Part shown: positions 13,113-26,774 of the stretch, one piece after another
Layout: every line of letters starts with the position of its first letter
Position numbering within the stretch: the first letter of the stretch is position 1
Notes under the pieces: generated by a model
The model's input: only the letters and a program-made list of their open reading frames with translations
What the model was told of the DNA's origin: nothing
Database searches by the model: none
Assembly: GCA_023954475.1 (NCBI GenBank)
Contig: JAMLHW010000013.1
Coordinates: forward strand, 1-64,000
DNA from: Anaerolineae bacterium
GTDB lineage: Bacteria > Chloroflexota > Anaerolineae > Promineifilales > Promineifilaceae
DNA: 64,000 nucleotides
Reading direction: 5' to 3'
Position numbers and translations under genes: made by a program

Positions 13113-14837
13113 ATGAACCCATTACCGACTTTCGACATGTATCCGTTTGGCGTAGATGCGCCAACTATCCCCGTACGCTATCGGGATAAATCTGAACGCA
13201 ATCCATTTTTGCCGGCACAGGATCGTGGCTATCCGTCACCGACCGCTCGGCCCTTTGCCCGTTATGCCATGCGCAACCTGTCACCCATCGATCAGATATT
13301 GTTTGAGCGTTTTGGCAAAGGAGTTTCGGCCGAAGTGCCTTACGAAACGCTGCACAGCGCCTTTGAAGCCCATGCCGCGGCCCAGCCCCACGCCATCGCT
13401 GCACACCATCTCGATCAGTCGATCACCTACGGCGAACTTGACCGGCAAGCTAACCGCCTTGCGGCCACACTGGCCCGGCACGGTGTTGTGACCGGTGATA
13501 ATGTGGCCCTTTTTCTGCAACGCTCCATTCCGATGCTTGTCGGCATCATGGGCGCATTGAAAGCAGGCGCATCCTATGTGCCGCAACACGTCGGCGTTGC
13601 ACCAGAAGCGCACTTGAAATACGTCATCGAGACGGCAAAAACGAAGGTGATTCTCACGCTCTCGCACTTGCAACACCTCATTCCGGTTCCCGAAGGCCAC
13701 ACGGTCATTGCAGTTGATGAATTCATGCAGACGCCGTTTGCAGAAAACGACTTTATCGCGCCGTTTATGCCGGTTCAGCCGGTCAGCCGCGACAACATTT
13801 GCAACATCATTTTCACGTCCGGCACAACCGGCAATCCTAATGGCGTGCAAGTGACCCACGGCAATATCGGCAATATCGTGCTGACCGAGCCGGGTAATCT
13901 GGGTATGCGACCCGGCGTCAAGGTCGGGCAGATTTTGAGCATCGCTTTTGATATGGCCGCGTGGGAAATACTCGGCAGTCTGGGAAACGGCGCGACGCTG
14001 GTGATTCGCGGCAAAGAGTTTATGCAAGCTGTCAAGCAGGTTGATGTCGTCATTTCGACCCCGTCGATTTTGAGCACATTTGACGCTGACGCTGCGTACA
14101 ATGTCAAAGTGGTTGCCGTCGCCGGTGAGCCTTGCCCGCGTCCGTTGGCCGACAAATGGTCGCAATTCAGCACGTTTTATAACGCGTGTGGCCCGACTGA
14201 GACGACGATTGTCAATACGATGCAGGATTACAAACCGTGGCGCGAACGTCTGACGATTGGCGCACCGACGCCCAACAATACCGTTTACGTGCTGGATGAA
14301 AATTTGAAGCCGTGCGCGATTGGCGAGATCGGTGAAATGTGGGCGGGTGGCGATTGTGTTTCGGCCGGTTACATTGGCAACGATGATCTGACTGCAGCAC
14401 GCTATGTACCGGATCCGTTTCTCGGCGGTGGGCGCATGATGTTCCGCACACGTGATTTGGGGCGCTGGACAGCGTACGGTGAACTGGAGCATTTCGGCCG
14501 AACGGATGATCAGGTCAAAGTGCGTGGTTTTCGCGTTGAACTCGACTCGGTTTCAGGCGTGCTTGAAAACGTCGCACATTGTAAACGCGCTGTCACGCTC
14601 AAGCTGGACAGCCGCCATCTAGTCGGCTTTGTCAGTCCGTTGCGCGTCGATGTTGAAGCTGCAAAGCAGGCTGTTGCTGCTGCGCTGCCCTATTACTGCA
14701 CGCCGAAATTCATCGTCGCTTTGGAAGAACTGCCGATGACCAGCCGCGGCAAGATCGACAAGCGTCAATTGATGCAGCTGGCTGTTGAGTTGGATTCGGC
14801 CGAAAATCAGGAACAATTGGAGTCTGCGCCGTGTTAA
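13113..14837 (+). CDS. Stand-alone amino-acid-adenylation (NRPS-like A domain) enzyme
   Basis: The 574-residue protein is a member of the ANL adenylating superfamily. About 90 leading residues precede the domain. Core motifs: A3 FTSGTTGNPNG near 234-244 (the usual Lys of TGxPKG is Asn), A4 region SIAFDMAAWEILGSL, A5 NACGPTETT near 357, A7 FRTRDLGRW (usual RTGD is changed), A8 GRTDDQVKVRGFRVEL near 461-476, and A10 with RGKIDK near 545-550, which carries the catalytic Lys. No carrier-protein site (LGGxS type) follows, so the acyl-adenylate must be passed to something else. The next gene overlaps its end by seven bases. Substrate is not deducible by eye. AGAGGA precedes the ATG. Confidence 0.85.
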   Translation: MNPLPTFDMYPFGVDAPTIPVRYRDKSERNPFLPAQDRGYPSPTARPFARYAMRNLSPIDQILFERFGKGVSAEVPYETLHSAFEAHAAAQPHAIAAHHLDQSITYGELDRQANRLAATLARHGVVTGDNVALFLQRSIPMLVGIMGALKAGASYVPQHVGVAPEAHLKYVIETAKTKVILTLSHLQHLIPVPEGHTVIAVDEFMQTPFAENDFIAPFMPVQPVSRDNICNIIFTSGTTGNPNGVQVTHGNIGNIVLTEPGNLGMRPGVKVGQILSIAFDMAAWEILGSLGNGATLVIRGKEFMQAVKQVDVVISTPSILSTFDADAAYNVKVVAVAGEPCPRPLADKWSQFSTFYNACGPTETTIVNTMQDYKPWRERLTIGAPTPNNTVYVLDENLKPCAIGEIGEMWAGGDCVSAGYIGNDDLTAARYVPDPFLGGGRMMFRTRDLGRWTAYGELEHFGRTDDQVKVRGFRVELDSVSGVLENVAHCKRAVTLKLDSRHLVGFVSPLRVDVEAAKQAVAAALPYYCTPKFIVALEELPMTSRGKIDKRQLMQLAVELDSAENQEQLESAPC

Positions 14838-16222
14838 AGAGTTACTCAAACGTCAAGCTGCCCCGTCAAGAAGTCGATACAAAGCCAGCCTACAAAGTTG
14901 CCGATGACGGCTTGCCGCCTCAACAAAGTGCGCTGAGGCGCATCGGCAAGCGCCCTGAGATGATGCATTATAACCGGCTGATTGGGCTGGTGGCCTTGGT
15001 CAATGCTGTCGTTCTCATCATGGGTGTGACACGTGGTCGGTGGTTATCGGCCGATGGCATTGCATTGAATGCGTTGTCCAATCTCGTACTCGCCAACATC
15101 GCGCTGGCCATCTTGATCCGTCAGCAATACGTCATCAATTTCCTGTTCAAAGTGGCAACCAGCGTGCCAACCAGTTGGCCACTGGCAGTTCGCTGGACAT
15201 TGGGCAAGGTGTACCATTTTGGTGGCTTGCATGTCGGTGGCGCAGTTGTCGGAACGATGTGGTTTGCCGTCTTCGTCGTATCACTTGCCTATCAATGGCT
15301 TAACGGCTTACCCGGCGCGTCTCCGGCCATTCTCATTGTGACGAGCTTGCTGCTCGCCATCCTGATTTTCATGATCGCAATGTCGATGCCCAAGATGCGT
15401 GCCAGACATCACGATGGATTTGAACTGACCCATCGCTTCGGCGGCTGGGCGGCGCTGCTCCTGTTTTGGATTCAAACCATCCTGTTTATCAACTTGCAGC
15501 GCGGTGATGTGTCGTTGTCAATGGCTATCCTGACTGCGCCAACTGTGTGGGTTTTGTGTCTGGTTACATTCAGCATTGCGTTACCATGGCTGCGTTTGCG
15601 CAAAGTGCCGGTCGAAATCGAAACGCCGTCAAATCACGTCGCGTTGAGCAAGTTCGATTACGGCGTCACGCCATTCGCTGGCTCATCGACGACGATCAGC
15701 CGCAACCCGCTAATTGAATGGCATGCCTTTGCCAATGTGCCGTCGCCGAACGCAGAAGGATTCCGTCTGACCATTTCCCGCGCGGGTGATTGGACCGGCG
15801 ACCTGATCGATGACAAACCGTCGCATGTGTGGGTGAAAGGGATTCCGACGGCCGGTGTGGGCAACATCGACAAATTGTTCAAGCGCGTTGTGTGGGTTGC
15901 AACCGGCAGTGGCATTGGGCCATGTTTGCCTCATTTGCTGGCAGGCGATACGCCGTCGCGCCTCGTCTGGTCAACACGCTCGCCGCGTGCCACCTATGGC
16001 GATGCGTTGGTCGATGAAATTATCGCCGTCCAGCCTGATGCCATCATCTGGGATACAAACGAGAATGGGCGTCCTGATTTGGTCAAGCTGGCGTACAGAG
16101 CATACGAGGAATTCGACGCGGAAGCGGTGATCTGTATTTCAAACAAGAAGCTCACATGGCAGGTGGTTTACGGCATGGAAAGCCGTGGCATTCCGGCTTA
16201 CGGAGCGATTTGGGATTCATAA
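14831..16222 (+). CDS. Integral membrane protein with C-terminal dinucleotide-binding-like domain, coupled to the adenylation enzyme
   Basis: The 463-residue product begins at GTG 14831, inside the end of the previous gene, with GGAG 10 bases upstream. Six hydrophobic segments lie between residues 45 and 255 (for example LIGLVALVNAVVLIMG and ILIVTSLLLAILIFMIAMSM). The soluble tail has HAFANVPSPNAEGFRLTISR (FAD-binding-like beta barrel region), HVWVKGIPTAGVG and VVWVATGSGIGPCLPHLLA near 352-370, which resemble the FAD and NAD(P) parts of ferredoxin-reductase-like proteins. Together this looks like a ferric-reductase or NADPH-oxidase-like membrane flavoprotein, but I see no clear paired haem His pattern. 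Overlap implies a shared pathway with the adenylation enzyme, perhaps reduction of an activated acid. Confidence 0.7.
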   Translation: MLKSYSNVKLPRQEVDTKPAYKVADDGLPPQQSALRRIGKRPEMMHYNRLIGLVALVNAVVLIMGVTRGRWLSADGIALNALSNLVLANIALAILIRQQYVINFLFKVATSVPTSWPLAVRWTLGKVYHFGGLHVGGAVVGTMWFAVFVVSLAYQWLNGLPGASPAILIVTSLLLAILIFMIAMSMPKMRARHHDGFELTHRFGGWAALLLFWIQTILFINLQRGDVSLSMAILTAPTVWVLCLVTFSIALPWLRLRKVPVEIETPSNHVALSKFDYGVTPFAGSSTTISRNPLIEWHAFANVPSPNAEGFRLTISRAGDWTGDLIDDKPSHVWVKGIPTAGVGNIDKLFKRVVWVATGSGIGPCLPHLLAGDTPSRLVWSTRSPRATYGDALVDEIIAVQPDAIIWDTNENGRPDLVKLAYRAYEEFDAEAVICISNKKLTWQVVYGMESRGIPAYGAIWDS

Positions 16223-16317: not shown

Positions 16318-17082
16318 ATGTCTATTGAAATTGAACGCTATGATCGGGTTGTGCTGGTGCGCTTGAATCGGCCGAAAACCCTCAACGCCTTGAACTCAGA
16401 CATGATGTGTCAGATTGTGACTACACTGGAATCGCTGGATCGCGATCCGTCGGTGGGCTGCTTTGTCATCACTGGCAATGAACGTGCGTTCGCTGCCGGT
16501 GCCGATATCAAAGAATTGGCGCACAAGTCGTATATCGATCTGTTCCATGAAGATTACTTCGTCACGTGGGAACGGTTTACGGCACTGCGCACACCGAAGG
16601 TCGCGGCGGTTTCGGGTTATGCGCTGGGCGGCGGGTGTGAACTGGCGCTGATGTGCGACGTGATCTACGCTTCCGAAACGGCCAAATTTGGTCAACCGGA
16701 GATCAAGCTGGGTTTGACACCCGGTATGGGTGGCTCACAGCGGCTGACGAAACTGATCGGTAAGGCAAAAGCGATGGATATGGTGTTGACCGGACGGATG
16801 ATGGACGCGGAGGAAGCGGAACGGGCAGGGTTAGTGGCGCGGGTGTTTTCGGCCGAAACATTTATGGCTGACGTACTCGACAATGCCCAAACCATCGCCT
16901 CATACAGCAAAGTGGCTGCCATTGCCAATCGCGAAGCGGTCGAACGGGCGCAAGAAACGAGTTTGCGTGAAGGATTGCTGTTTGAGCGCCGCACCTACCA
17001 TGCATTGTGGGCGACGCGAGACGCCAATGAAGGAATGCAGGCATTTATCGAGAAGCGGAAACCGGTTTTTGTAAACCAATAA
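16318..17082 (+). CDS. Enoyl-CoA hydratase / crotonase family protein
   Basis: The 254-residue protein has the normal crotonase length. It would hydrate trans-2-enoyl-CoA in beta-oxidation. Visible motifs: N-terminal LNRPKTLNALNSDM, the oxyanion-hole stretch AAGADIKEL near residue 60-68, ALGGGCELALMCD near 103-115 with the first catalytic Glu, and FGQPEIKLGLTPGMGGSQRL near 124-143 with the second Glu. Both acids of true hydratases are present. GGAG lies shortly before the ATG. It follows the adenylation and membrane genes on the same strand after a repeat block, so co-transcription is possible but unproved. A bidirectional terminator follows the stop. Confidence 0.92.
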   Translation: MSIEIERYDRVVLVRLNRPKTLNALNSDMMCQIVTTLESLDRDPSVGCFVITGNERAFAAGADIKELAHKSYIDLFHEDYFVTWERFTALRTPKVAAVSGYALGGGCELALMCDVIYASETAKFGQPEIKLGLTPGMGGSQRLTKLIGKAKAMDMVLTGRMMDAEEAERAGLVARVFSAETFMADVLDNAQTIASYSKVAAIANREAVERAQETSLREGLLFERRTYHALWATRDANEGMQAFIEKRKPVFVNQ

Positions 17083-17097
17083 AGTGAAAACAAAAAA

Positions 17098-17132
17098 GCC
17101 GATGCCGGCACATAGGCCGGTATCGGCTCTTC
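17098..17132. terminator. Bidirectional Rho-independent terminator between convergent genes
   Basis: An 11-bp stem (GCCGATGCCGG at 17098-17108, CCGGTATCGGC at 17117-17127, one G-T pair) with an eight-base loop has an A tract to its left and a T-rich tail to its right. It sits between the enoyl-CoA hydratase (ends 17082) and the minus-strand gene ending at 17166, and can serve both. Confidence 0.8.
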
Positions 17133-20405: not shown

Positions 20406-23400
20406 CTATTCGATTGTCAATACCCCACCCGCTGATCGGCCGAATACCTCAGGGAAGAATTCCTGCCGCGCCGTCGCCGGCATTACTTGAAACTCACCGG
20501 GAATAACCGGTTGCAAGTAATACGTGTACTGATACGTTCCGGCGGGAAGATACGCCGAACTAAACACAACCTTCTCATCACGGAATTCGATGCCATTAAA
20601 GTACCACCAGCCCCAATATCCGTAACTGTAAGGTGCCGGCTGATCATTACCCGGTTCAAATGCCGTCGATGATGTCTCCAGATTAGGATCAATCGCCTCC
20701 GCACCAGCCGGTAGCGGGTCTTCAATGACCGCGTACGTTAGATCATTAGGCGCGACAATCGTCAGTTCGACACGCACCTGCTGATCAGATGTGACGGTCG
20801 TGATTGGCTCGCAGGTTTCTGTGAGCGGATCGCATGCTGCATCAAAGTATTGACGTGACACCACAATGCCGCGCTCGACCGGGTCCACTTGGTTGGCGTC
20901 GAGGAAGGCGTTGAGATGCGCCGTGTAGTAGAGCACCCCGTCACCCGCGCTGCGCTGAATGTCGAGATAGTTCAACTCGTCGATCAACATCTCGTCGATG
21001 GGAATGGTGACCAAATCGGCACGTGCGACATCAGCCGGTGTGAATTGGCCCTCGGCAACGGGTTCGAAGTTCATCGCCACAGCATAATCGTATGCGGCGT
21101 CGAGTTCACCGGTTGCGGTCATCACATCAGTCAACGCCAACATGCTCCACGCACCTTCGTGCAGTGTGGGCCAGTAGACTAATTCACGTGCCGACATCAA
21201 CCAGCGCACGGCATTGCTGATGATGGTATTGTCGGGATCGACAGTCGCCAGTGCATCGATGACCATCGCTGTGCCGCGCACATCACTGCTCAGGTTGTCC
21301 CAGTCAGGCATCTGGTCTTCCCAATGCGCGCCGGTTGCGCTGAGAATGACGCTGTTGTTGAGGTCTGAAAGCAGGATATCCTGATTGCTGTCGCTGCCGA
21401 TTGCGGCGTATGCGGAGAGCATGAGTGCTTTGGCGTACGGGTCGAGCAAGTCGCGTGTCGTGTCAAACAGTTCGTCGAGGTCGGCGCCCACGTCTTCGCC
21501 TGCTGTGGCGAGAACGTAGAGATAGAAAGCCTGCCGGTTGGCGTCGGATGTGGTTTTAAGTGTTTCGGCCGAAACCAACGCCCGATCCACGAATGCGATG
21601 CCATCTGTAATCACCTTATCTGAGACATCATAGCCCGCTTCATCAGCCTTCAGCAAAGCGAATAGCACATAAGCGCTCAGGTATTCGTCTGTTTCCGGAC
21701 TGCCGCACCAACTCCAGCCACCATTGCTGTGTTGAGTCTCTTCGATTGTTGCGATTTGTAGCGGAATTTGCGCATCGAGGTCAGCCTGTAGCAGTACATC
21801 GCTAAAGCTCAGATCGCGCAGTGCCAGCGCCATGGCTGAATTGGGCAACAGGTAGCTGGCGGCGACATGGGCACATTGGTACAGTGCATCCTGCTCGTAT
21901 TTGAGCGCTTCGAGGCCATCGAGAATTCCGGATGCCAGCGATGCATTCAGCCGCAGCTTGACATCGCCAATGCGTGTGTCAGTGATCGGTGGCAGCAAGA
22001 TTGCTTCGACACGACGTCCTTCCTGGTCAAAGCTGCCTGCAGTTGCCGTAAAGTCTGATGCATCAAAGCGGTAGACGGGTAATGGTTCACCCCGGCTGAC
22101 AGTCGGCTTGCTCGCGTCGCTGTACTCGCCGGCATCGACACTGAAGACGAGATCAGATTCATCGACATCCAGCACCGTAACCGGCCAGCGCACTGCTTCG
22201 CCGCTGTGCGCGGGAATGGTCACGCTGATTGTTTGCGATGCAGCCGTCGGGTCGTCGGTAAAGATCAAACCGGTCGCTTCCAGCGTCACAGCCGCTTCAA
22301 CCGGCGCATCGGTATTGTTATTGACCACCGCACCGAGCGAAACTTGGTCACCGACAGTGAAGAATCGCGGCGTAATCGGCCGAATCAGGACCGGTTTCGT
22401 GGCGATAATGTCTACATCATCCTGGCCTACGAGCGTATCGACGGTCGCCGCTTTGGCGCTCAACCGCCACGTCGTCAGATTGTCCGGCAAGTCAACGGTA
22501 ACAGTCGCCTGTCCTGCTCCGTCTGTTGTCAGGCGCGGCTCCCAATATGCTGTATCGCGGAAATCCTGACGCACGCCGTCACTGCCTTCTTCCGAGCGCA
22601 GGGCGAGCGATTCAGCCGCCACATCGCCACCACCGCCACCGCCACCGTACCCGCCCAGATTGGACGGTTCGGTGATTGCCAGGCCCTCACCGGAATAAAG
22701 GATACCTGAGCCAATTTGGCTGCGATAAGGTTGGCGAGAGTAGAAAGCTTCGAGAATATCCGGTGCATTATCGGGTTTGAGCTGCAGTACGGCCAGATCG
22801 ACCATTGCCAGTGAGAAATCGGCCGAAACCGGATTGCCGTCCGCGTCTGTAATGGTGATGTCGTATGTCACGTCAGCGCCGGGCGAGACCACATCTTGAT
22901 CGGGACTGAGTGCCAATTCGAGGCGCAGACCTTCCGGCGAAACGGGAATTTCGGTGATGCCCAGACGCATATCGGCCCACGGGCGATCACTGTCGTCGAC
23001 CGGTTTGATGGCGACAATGGTGACGAATACGTTCGGCGCATAATCGGCCGAAAGCGGCAATTCGAGCACCGTGCTGCCGTCAACTGTAATCAGCCGTTCC
23101 TCGATTTGCTCGCCGCGCTCAATGACCAGCCACGCTGTAATCGGTTCCGGGAACGGTGATTGCACGAGTATGCGTGCCGTATCGCCGACTTTGTATTCCT
23201 GTTGATCCGCAACGAGCGTCATTTTGCGATCTTGCGGATCGAAGCGCCACGCTGCGTACCCCTCTTCCATCACCCAGAAATCGAGATTGCTGACCTGCGT
23301 GCGACCGCCACTATCGGTCACGGTGGCTTCAGCGACATAGCTGCCGCCTTTGTCCGGCACGAACGTTGCCGTTGCGGCACCGTTGCTGTCCGTGGTTACG

Positions 23401-26400
23401 GCGACACGCGCCACTTCCGTGTCTACCGGTTCCCAGTACACTTGACTGGGATTGAAGTCGTCGCGAATACTGCGCCATTCACGCTCGTAGAAAACAACTT
23501 CTACTGCTGCATTGGGTACGATGTCGCCGTTCCAGTCAACGGTGCGTAGTTCGACTTCCGTTTCTGTTTCGGCCGCAGCGATCGGCTGCGCCATGCCGAT
23601 GCCGACATAGGTTTCAGCCGCGTGTTGTACAGCCGTTGTCCGTGCGCTGGTCAAGAAACCGGTCAGATCAGTGACGGTGGCTTCGAACATCAGATTACGG
23701 CTGCCTTCCGGCATGGCAGCAAGCGCATCGGCCGAAATGTCGACAACGAGTTGGCCGTTGCCGTCCGTTTTGCCCATACCGTCGGCAATCCATTGAGAAC
23801 TGGAAACACCAATCCCGATGAACGGGTTCCACGGCTGATACGCACTGGGCGCAAAACTGTACTGGTAGTTGCCGGTGTCCAGGTAATATGGCTCACTCGA
23901 CAAAGACCAGGTCACGTCGAGATCGGCCGCCGGGCCGCCGAAGAAGTAGCTGACATCGACGGTGAATTGCGCCGGTTCGCCGCGCAGACCTTCGTCAACC
24001 GCTGCCGTGGAGGTCACGAGAATTTCCGGTGCCCGGTATTCGGCAACGGTGAACTCGCGATTTGAGTTGTAGTCAAAGTCGGGTGAGTCGATGATGATGT
24101 TGTACGTGCCGAGTGTGGCGTTTTCGGGAACAATGTATTCGGCCGAAAAGCCGCCGTTCTCATCCATCACGACTTCAATCGCTTCTTCTTGCGTTGCATT
24201 TTCCGTGTAACTGTAAGCGGGCAATAGTTTGAGTGTTACATCAGATAGATCCGGTTGTCCGTAGCGGCCGTAATTGGTTGCACGCAAGACGCCGCGAATG
24301 TTGACCGTATCGCCGGGCCGGTAAATGGGCCGGTCGGTGTAGATGTAAGCGTAATAGGGGCGCTCATCCTCCCAACCATAGGTAATGCCAAATTGCCACG
24401 GTTCGACAGACAAACTCCATTGACTGCTGCCTGCGCCAAAACCAGGCTCGCCCGGCGTGCCGGCGACGGCTAGCGTGCCGCTGTTGCGACCATTTTCAGA
24501 TTTTGCCAATGTTGCCAGCCCGTCATTGTCGGTTGTCGCCGAGCCGATGTTCACACCGTCATAGTAAAAAGCGATGTTGAGACCGGCACTCGGTTCGCCG
24601 CTTTCCAGATCAGTTGCCCAGACATGGACATGATTAAACGTTTCTTTAACCACCAGATTGGTATCGGCGACGATCAGCAAGTTGCGCGGATACTGCCAGT
24701 AATAGGCGTTTTCACCCAATTCCGGTGCATCGATATCGAGCAGATAGACACCGGTGGGCAGCACACCGCCATCAGTCGCCAACTCGATTGACTGGCTGCC
24801 CAGTTCGTCTTCAATCGAGCTGACACTGTAAGACCACTCACCTATAGGGTCGGTCGGCGCTACATCGGGATCGTTCACCTGATAGGGTTGACCGAGGAGA
24901 TTAGCCGGAATCGCACCGTCAAAATCGTATAGACTGACATCAAAACCGGAAACGCGTCGATAAACCACATCGACAATAGATGGAAAACTGGTGCTCAATT
25001 GGCTTACATTGGGCGGTAGGTTGAATGTTGCTAACGGCTCATAATCGGCCGTTGTAAACGACCACATATAATCTTCACCCATTTTGTTGCCGTAAATGTC
25101 TTCGACATCGCCTGAAAGCGTAACCTCATACGTTGTGTTGCGTTCCAGCAGCGTGTTGATGAACATGAACTGGCTTTCGGGCCAGAAATCGATTCTGTAT
25201 CCGTCGAGCGGCTCCGGTGAAATGGTGATGCTGTTCTCCAGCGTGTCGCCATTCATCGGCGAGACAAAGGTGATGTTGATACCGTTCCACGATGCGCCCG
25301 TTTCACGATTGCGTGGGTACGTTTCGTCGACGCCGGGATACGGATAGGTTGTCATGCGTGCGTTGGCGGAGCGTGCCAGTGTCGCGCCGCTTGCCGATGT
25401 TGCGGAGTCATCGACATCGATGCGATAGGTTGTTTCCAGTGCGAAGCTCGGGTCGGGAATGAGCATCATGACCCGATCCCCATCGCGCCACGCAACTATG
25501 TATTCGGCCGAAGGCGTCATTGTCACAGCCGCTTCAGTCGTAGTGCGATCCATCGGCATGTTAAATGTGATCGAAATGGGCTGAGTCGGATCGAGTTGCG
25601 ACGGGTCGCCATCGTGTTCAAACTTGACCACGCTCGGTGGCGCAGTGGTAAACGTCGTGACATGGTCTTCAGCCAATACGCTGCCGACCACATCTTCCAG
25701 CCCGGCGTTGACGGTGACGGAGTACTCCGTGCCACCGTCGAAACCGTTGTCCGGCACAAAGCGGTAGATGCTCGTCGATATCCACTCACCGCTACCGGCT
25801 GTATCTGGTTCGATGGTAAGCGGCTGCGGCAAGTCCTCCTGCTGTGCTGTTGTTACCAGTGGCACGACGGGGCGGTTAAACATAACGGTGATGGCACCGT
25901 CGGCCTGTACGTCTTCTGTGCTGTCGGCCGGGATGACCTGGCTGACATCGAGATAGCCGACGGTTCGGAAATTGAGGCGCAGCGCATCTTGCAACAGCTT
26001 GCCGTTTTGTCCGCGTGCGGTTTCGCCGACGGTGACCTGGTAGAGGCGGGCACGGCCTAATTTGTCGGCCGGTGTGTAGATCAGGGTGTCGTCGCCCGTC
26101 CAGGTGAAGGCACCTTCGACCGGTTCGGCCGATTCTTCACTCTCTGCACCATCCACATCTGTTTCGGCAACTGCGGCGACGGCAAATGCGGATTCGACCG
26201 AAGTGCGATCCATGGGCTGATCAAAGCGCAGCGTGATCGCGCCGTCCAATGTCACCTGTTCACCGGGCAGCGGGCTGCTGTAGACGAGCTGAGGGGGCCA
26301 ATCGGCTATGACAGCCGTTTCCGGCGCGTTGGATTCTGTATCAGTGTTTTCGGCCGATGCCGGCTCGTCTGGTGTCGCAACGTCAGTCGTGCGATCCTCG

Positions 26401-26510
26401 GACGCTGGTGGGGTTGCTGACGGTGTCGCATCTTCACGCGCACACGCTATCAGCGCGATTAACAACGCCAACATCACTATCAAGCTGGTTCCAAAATGGC
26501 GTTTCTGCAT
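20406..26510 (-). CDS. Giant lipoprotein, bacterial alpha-2-macroglobulin family, with SbsA-type Ig-like repeats
   Basis: From ATG 26510, with AAGGAG nine bases upstream, the protein is 2034 residues. A lipoprotein signal ends at Cys23 in LIAC. A Thr/Ser/Glu-rich linker leads to about four Ig-like (Big_5) domains with FDQPMDRTSVE, FNRPVVP, FNMPMDRTT and FVSPMNGDTLE. Macroglobulin (MG) domains follow with TDRPIYRPGDTVNIRG near residue 650. A Gly run GGYGGGGGGGD near 1290 precedes FRDTAYWEPRL near 1316 and LPDNLTTWRLSAKA, the A2M domain. The helical thioester domain has YQCAHVAASY near 1542, where active members have CxEQ, so the trap cannot form a thioester. Likely an outer-surface protease inhibitor or structural protein. 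Confidence 0.88.
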   Translation of the reverse strand: MQKRHFGTSLIVMLALLIALIACAREDATPSATPPASEDRTTDVATPDEPASAENTDTESNAPETAVIADWPPQLVYSSPLPGEQVTLDGAITLRFDQPMDRTSVESAFAVAAVAETDVDGAESEESAEPVEGAFTWTGDDTLIYTPADKLGRARLYQVTVGETARGQNGKLLQDALRLNFRTVGYLDVSQVIPADSTEDVQADGAITVMFNRPVVPLVTTAQQEDLPQPLTIEPDTAGSGEWISTSIYRFVPDNGFDGGTEYSVTVNAGLEDVVGSVLAEDHVTTFTTAPPSVVKFEHDGDPSQLDPTQPISITFNMPMDRTTTEAAVTMTPSAEYIVAWRDGDRVMMLIPDPSFALETTYRIDVDDSATSASGATLARSANARMTTYPYPGVDETYPRNRETGASWNGINITFVSPMNGDTLENSITISPEPLDGYRIDFWPESQFMFINTLLERNTTYEVTLSGDVEDIYGNKMGEDYMWSFTTADYEPLATFNLPPNVSQLSTSFPSIVDVVYRRVSGFDVSLYDFDGAIPANLLGQPYQVNDPDVAPTDPIGEWSYSVSSIEDELGSQSIELATDGGVLPTGVYLLDIDAPELGENAYYWQYPRNLLIVADTNLVVKETFNHVHVWATDLESGEPSAGLNIAFYYDGVNIGSATTDNDGLATLAKSENGRNSGTLAVAGTPGEPGFGAGSSQWSLSVEPWQFGITYGWEDERPYYAYIYTDRPIYRPGDTVNIRGVLRATNYGRYGQPDLSDVTLKLLPAYSYTENATQEEAIEVVMDENGGFSAEYIVPENATLGTYNIIIDSPDFDYNSNREFTVAEYRAPEILVTSTAAVDEGLRGEPAQFTVDVSYFFGGPAADLDVTWSLSSEPYYLDTGNYQYSFAPSAYQPWNPFIGIGVSSSQWIADGMGKTDGNGQLVVDISADALAAMPEGSRNLMFEATVTDLTGFLTSARTTAVQHAAETYVGIGMAQPIAAAETETEVELRTVDWNGDIVPNAAVEVVFYEREWRSIRDDFNPSQVYWEPVDTEVARVAVTTDSNGAATATFVPDKGGSYVAEATVTDSGGRTQVSNLDFWVMEEGYAAWRFDPQDRKMTLVADQQEYKVGDTARILVQSPFPEPITAWLVIERGEQIEERLITVDGSTVLELPLSADYAPNVFVTIVAIKPVDDSDRPWADMRLGITEIPVSPEGLRLELALSPDQDVVSPGADVTYDITITDADGNPVSADFSLAMVDLAVLQLKPDNAPDILEAFYSRQPYRSQIGSGILYSGEGLAITEPSNLGGYGGGGGGGDVAAESLALRSEEGSDGVRQDFRDTAYWEPRLTTDGAGQATVTVDLPDNLTTWRLSAKAATVDTLVGQDDVDIIATKPVLIRPITPRFFTVGDQVSLGAVVNNNTDAPVEAAVTLEATGLIFTDDPTAASQTISVTIPAHSGEAVRWPVTVLDVDESDLVFSVDAGEYSDASKPTVSRGEPLPVYRFDASDFTATAGSFDQEGRRVEAILLPPITDTRIGDVKLRLNASLASGILDGLEALKYEQDALYQCAHVAASYLLPNSAMALALRDLSFSDVLLQADLDAQIPLQIATIEETQHSNGGWSWCGSPETDEYLSAYVLFALLKADEAGYDVSDKVITDGIAFVDRALVSAETLKTTSDANRQAFYLYVLATAGEDVGADLDELFDTTRDLLDPYAKALMLSAYAAIGSDSNQDILLSDLNNSVILSATGAHWEDQMPDWDNLSSDVRGTAMVIDALATVDPDNTIISNAVRWLMSARELVYWPTLHEGAWSMLALTDVMTATGELDAAYDYAVAMNFEPVAEGQFTPADVARADLVTIPIDEMLIDELNYLDIQRSAGDGVLYYTAHLNAFLDANQVDPVERGIVVSRQYFDAACDPLTETCEPITTVTSDQQVRVELTIVAPNDLTYAVIEDPLPAGAEAIDPNLETSSTAFEPGNDQPAPYSYGYWGWWYFNGIEFRDEKVVFSSAYLPAGTYQYTYYLQPVIPGEFQVMPATARQEFFPEVFGRSAGGVLTIE

Positions 26511-26774
26511 GTCAATCTCCTTCAAAATACGCTTCAAGTTGCCTGTTTCCAGTGTAAATGGCTTCAAATTCATTGTCGCATAAACGGCATGCTTTGCATA
26601 GCCGACAAGCTACCGTCATAGCAACTATTTAACGTCGATTTCGGCCGAAATGTTCCAATCGGACGGGATATTGGTGTCTAGTTTTTGGAGTGCCGGATTA
26701 TGCTGCCTAAAACCGTTTGCCTCATGGCTCTATTGTCTTTCCCATGGACAGTGCATGCCGGACACGATGTGTCA

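Follow-up and report, generated by a model that had tools for sequence, protein, structure and literature searches.

The window, a stretch of 64,000 nucleotides from an Anaerolineae contig, harbors a three-gene operon on the forward strand. The first gene (13113..14837, + strand) encodes A, a stand-alone NRPS-type adenylation enzyme of 574 aa with matches to AMP-binding and TIGR01733, and the second (14831..16222, +), which has a GTG start, encodes B, a six-helix membrane oxidoreductase of 463 aa with a predicted NADPH-oxidase/ferric-reductase fold. As judged by the ORF coordinates, the two genes overlap by exactly 7 bases (14831..14837, +), in agreement with the initial annotation of this DNA, and the overlap is consistent with coupled translation. 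That annotation had taken the pair as the unit; both genes were confirmed, but it had overlooked a third, ECH (16318..17082, +), which begins after a gap of 95 bases and encodes an operon-specific copy of an enoyl-CoA hydratase (crotonase). On the 3' side of ECH lies a terminator-like hairpin (17097..17128, +) of 13 pairs with a U-rich tail; it is by far the longest stem in the region, where the number of terminator-like structures is close to shuffle expectation, and it probably marks the end of the operon. Further along on the minus strand (20406-26573), the window encodes an alpha-2-macroglobulin-like bacterial protein of 2055 aa with Big_5 repeats.

In domain searches, A matched AMP-binding with an E value of 1.2e-66 and TIGR01733, the model for NRPS-type amino-acid adenylation, with 317.8 bits, a slight margin over the curated cut-off of 317.4, and its nearest solved structures are the A domains of linear gramicidin and gramicidin synthetase. 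The core motifs were as initially described: A5, A8 and A10 are intact, with retention of the catalytic Lys547, A3 is FTSGTTGNPNGV, with Asn243 where lysine is usual, and A7 reads FRTRDLGRW. The altered A3 lysine is real but not peculiar to the window gene, with asparagine at this position in 22/22 A relatives; likewise, most of these 22 relatives carry TRDL in A7, with arginine in place of the usual glycine. As judged by the aligned sequences, both changes are signatures of the family rather than quirks of a single gene. One might surmise from these substitutions that A no longer adenylates and has become a sensor or regulatory subunit of a membrane oxidase; however, the A10 lysine, A5, A8 and the substrate Asp and Trp residues are invariant (K547, D280 and W284 in 22/22 relatives) and the pocket code is conserved, and we regard such a role as very improbable. 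A degenerate adenylation domain was also considered, and ruled out by the invariant catalytic residues.

The pocket code of PheA is DAWTIAAICK. Reading by eye against the known PheA motifs, we obtained the code DMWIAAAIVK for the window protein and a nearly uniform DMWIAA[S/A/C/G]I[V/I]K across the family. Bacterial A thus has in common with the PheA and LgrA A domains the fold, the core motifs and the Asp/Trp/Lys pocket residues, and differs from them in the absence of a carrier or condensation domain, in the asparagine of A3 and in its code (DMWIAAxIVK vs. that of PheA). Three A members have a cysteine at the PheA 322-equivalent, a position at which cysteine has also been reported for TmpB (PMC4804170). 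Given the invariant catalytic residues together with the conserved pocket code, A is most likely a working enzyme with one substrate, and the near uniformity of the code suggests that this substrate is one amino acid conserved across phyla.

A had been described as carrier-less, and so it proved: the domain search returned AMP-binding only, with neither a thiolation nor a condensation domain, no carrier domain was found on the contig of A, and all 15 PP-binding matches in the genome sit on other contigs. The carrier and condensation domains that accompany the A domain of a canonical NRPS module are accordingly missing here. Away from the operon, on contigs C20 (222185-234167) and C25 (150577-158872), the host does possess two NRPS loci of the ordinary, carrier-containing kind, and there is ample precedent for in-trans loading by lone A domains; A could therefore be an in-trans loader of a carrier encoded elsewhere, with B and ECH tailoring the carrier-bound residue. 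We consider this rather unlikely, as no carrier was seen among the neighbors examined across loci (part of them family-searched), no carrier gene accompanies the operon in its moves between phyla, and the linker of fused A-B proteins, from A10 to the first helix, spans only ~50 residues and contains no carrier.

When B alone was compared with Pfam, NCBIfam and PDB sequences, there was no significant match; among its relatives, 4/23 matched Ferric_reduct (best E 2.6e-5), and the profile of the B family matched the FAD region of NOX2 weakly (E 0.007). Structural modeling was more informative. An AlphaFold2 model of B, built from 23 sequences of its own family (pLDDT 86.7), displayed six main membrane helices (46-67, 79-95, 118-157, 165-185, 194-223 and 237-254) and a two-lobed C-terminal domain comprising an FAD lobe and an NAD(P) lobe. 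This model superimposed on SpNOX (8qt6) with Z 23.2 over 364 residues (rmsd 4.3, 12% identity) and on NOX2 (8wej) with Z 22.4 over 403 residues (rmsd 3.6), and Foldseek hits to NADPH oxidases reached E values down to 5.8e-13. The GSGIGP motif occupies residues 359-364 and is invariant in 23/23 family members, as is a large share of the C-terminal lobe across the family. The six helices and GSGIGP tail of the initial annotation were hence borne out, by helix prediction and by these residues, and the FAD/NAD-binding domain that it had suggested looking for was found in the model. Based on this model, B belongs to the NOX/ferric-reductase fold class, having the whole fold in common with SpNOX, NOX2 and ferric reductase, namely a six-helix part together with the FAD and NADPH lobes, while being too distant for most Pfam matches. 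The initial annotation had also allowed for B being a transporter without a redox fold; this candidate was ruled out by the complete NADPH-oxidase fold with its FAD and NAD(P) lobes.

Inspection of the haem sites, also suggested at the outset, gave a divided answer. The membrane domain of B does harbor four invariant histidine residues, and only these: H129 and H134 in helix 3 and H194 and H201 in helix 5, with spacings of 5 and 7. In contrast, the histidine pairs are H101/H115 and H209/H222 in NOX2 and H69/H83 and H129/H142 in SpNOX, 14 apart in TM3 and 13 apart in TM5. The corresponding +14 and +13 outer-haem positions of B are taken up by L/V/I/M/T and V/A/I/T, adjoining the invariant W144 and W213, and the B family thus lacks conserved outer-haem histidines and, with them, the two bis-histidine haem sites of NOX. 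H201 fell on H209 of NOX2, an inner-haem ligand, in a weak alignment in which the membrane part contributed only 3.4 bits; an hhalign comparison between the B family and local ferric-reductase proteins produced no usable alignment, and a MAFFT alignment with a genomic ferric reductase (L048) was gappy, with TM5 shifted by three residues. From the histidine pattern we infer that B probably holds a single haem on the cytosolic side, with no conserved outer haem.

ECH was found directly downstream of B in 23/23 A-B loci with a long enough contig, a count that leaves out L005 and L011, whose contigs end too soon; in L020 it was located by tblastn. Both catalytic glutamates of a crotonase, E108 and E128, are present and invariant (19/19), and the nearest PDB entries are EchA8 and the mitochondrial hydratase. 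Across the family and its phyla the operon copies are 56-76% identical vs. at most 48% for the next ECH paralogue of the host, and the operon copy was again the best match in three further hosts (58-70%). In addition, when the distance matrices of the three genes were compared, they were correlated (r 0.64-0.76, 0/5000 permutations). Since ECH is closer across phyla than to its paralogues and the matrices are correlated, we conclude that A, B and ECH travel together. In Bacteroidota loci, a DUF6733-family protein follows ECH (L006:8279-9007, also L008, L009, L010 and L013).

Among the 26 B loci counted for gene order (the window, L002-L025 and L031), which stem from Chloroflexota, Bacteroidota, Gammaproteobacteria, Betaproteobacteria and Calditrichota, A lies directly upstream of B in 25. 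In four Bacteroidota loci, from Splendidivirga and three Aquimarina, A and B form one ORF of 1003-1019 aa, a fusion state that changes twice on the tree; an AlphaFold2 model of the fused protein had good domains but a pTM of 0.55, a caveat on their relative arrangement. The initial annotation had proposed a coupling between a carrier-less adenylation enzyme and a flavin/NAD(P) redox protein of the membrane, to be judged by whether the pair co-occurs elsewhere or is never conserved together; the pair is conserved, and fused in Bacteroidota. An isolated oddity of one genome was ruled out by the 26 loci in several phyla. The operon is nevertheless rare and patchy: a genome scan yielded 23 loci, from Chloroflexota, Bacteroidota, Pseudomonadota and Calditrichota. 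There were 2 clear cases among 301 Chloroflexota genomes (host included), and the operon was present in 5/59 relatives and in 1/274 genomes of Grimontia's class, namely the centre genome itself. On a tree in which many forks are weak, Chitinophagales/Lewinella and one Calditrichia were placed among Chloroflexota, and Aliikangiella (Gammaproteobacteria) was paired with Splendidivirga (Bacteroidota), a pattern that fits horizontal transfer. We also noticed, upstream of the A-B-ECH operon of a Chloroflexales MAG, a second, contig-truncated B (L007:2-760) with 70% identity to window B. In the complete genome of Aliamphritea spongicola (L023:6001-8149), B, ECH and several neighbors are frameshifted, reflecting either decay or sequencing error.

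B is also found by itself. L021 has B with neither A nor ECH, and stand-alone relatives without ECH are found on plasmids of Pantoea piersonii (L037:9100-10275, 48%) and Calothrix (L038:6475-7767, 30%), both annotated as hypothetical, with an HlyD-type secretion gene following the Calothrix copy. Together with the complete NOX fold, these stand-alone genes would be in keeping with B as a bacterial NADPH oxidase or ferric reductase engaged in extracellular superoxide formation or metal reduction, with A and ECH making an unrelated product and sharing only the operon. However, the histidine spacings of 5 and 7 in place of 14 and 13, the outer-haem positions without histidine across the family, and the near-constant adjacency of A and B, culminating in their fusion, make such an extracellular oxidase a quite unlikely explanation.

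We favor instead a pathway in which the three proteins act on one compound, although the order A, then B, then ECH is a proposal to which we would give somewhat less than an even chance. Based on the family fold, the Asp235-type and Lys517-type residues and the conserved code, A would activate an amino acid, probably a hydrophobic one, as an aminoacyl-adenylate. Recognizing that a carrier is absent and a CoA-type enzyme present, we surmise that the activated acyl group may be used directly or handed to CoA. B, as suggested by its NOX fold, the invariant histidines near the cytosolic end and GSGIGP, would then move a hydride from NAD(P)H to FAD and pass electrons on to a putative haem near the cytosolic face. 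As the outer-haem histidines are not conserved, the acceptor is probably a substrate at the inner side of the membrane rather than external O2 or iron. ECH may subsequently hydrate or dehydrate the resulting acyl-CoA, and the likely end product is a modified molecule derived from an amino acid, regarded in fungi as a developmental signal. Two-electron chemistry on an acyl group by a single-haem enzyme has no close precedent, which counts against this mechanism, and it is speculative that ECH would act on an aminoacyl-CoA.

The initial annotation could name no standard pathway that couples an acyl-adenylate to a membrane redox protein. The combination is in fact known in fungi, in TmpL, TmpB and ChNPS12 (PMC2766074, PMC4804170, PMC2823734). 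TmpL of Alternaria brassicicola and Aspergillus fumigatus (1025 and 994 aa) comprises an AMP-binding domain, six transmembrane domains and an FAD/NAD(P) domain with GSGIGP, has no thiolation or condensation domain, binds flavin in its C-terminal part as shown by UV-visible spectrum, and was reported from filamentous fungi only (PMC2766074). The same arrangement is seen in TmpB of A. nidulans (PMC4804170), giving sizes of 1025/994/989 aa for the group (PMC2766074; PMC4804170), and in the ChNPS12 homologues (PMC2823734); lone bacterial A domains (Hahella, Salinispora) nest in the ChNPS12 clade, with no mention of a reductase in the passages concerned (PMC2823734). An enoyl-CoA hydratase/isomerase gene sits beside tmpB and is conserved among Aspergilli (PMC2766074, PMC4804170, PMC2823734). 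In the bacterial proteins we find the same features: an NRPS-type A domain N-terminal of the membrane part, six helices and then an FAD/NAD(P) domain with GSGIGP, as judged by the AlphaFold2 model and the motif, and no thiolation or condensation domain. Our literature search, which covered few subscription journals, found no description of a bacterial TmpL-type version and no identification of the product of fungal TmpL/TmpB. The suggestion of an undescribed small-molecule route thus stands insofar as the route looks unsolved, but not as an architecture without precedent. In our view, the A-B architecture itself is not new, and its bacterial occurrence is real, conserved and under-described; the operon, in family identity and as an operon unit, is very probably the bacterial, usually split counterpart of TmpL/TmpB (NPS12), a likeness drawn from architecture, motif, size and published text rather than from alignment.

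This correspondence matters for several reasons. TmpL/TmpB is needed for normal sporulation of A. nidulans, and two fungal pathogens depend on it for their redox balance; the bacterial operon corrects the view of the architecture as one of filamentous fungi only. Its occurrence, with ECH as a third conserved gene, in the culturable marine genera Grimontia, Aquimarina, Aliikangiella and Pleionea offers a simpler system for the search for substrate and product. We further speculate, with considerable doubt, that the three genes constitute a mobile cross-kingdom pathway of amino-acid activation, a single-haem NOX-like step and a hydratase, leading without a carrier to an undescribed signaling or protective metabolite, that it entered fungi in the form of a fused gene, and that the conserved bacterial compound is the same as or near the TmpL/TmpB signal of fungi.

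Among the fungal systems, TmpA of A. nidulans is a reductase without an A domain, and in this respect resembles stand-alone B of L021, Pantoea and Calothrix; TmpA works with the separate 4CL-like AfeA, whereas no such partner was seen beside the bacterial stand-alone B genes. Fungal TmpL/TmpB is linked to conidiation and redox balance and reported solely in filamentous fungi, in contrast to the bacterial version, in which A and B are usually two overlapping or adjacent genes with ECH in the same operon. Both tmpB and bacterial B have an enoyl-CoA hydratase gene alongside, and TmpL, TmpB and ChNPS12 share with bacterial A-B a carrier-less layout of ~1000 aa made up of an A domain, six helices and an FAD/NAD(P) domain with GSGIGP.
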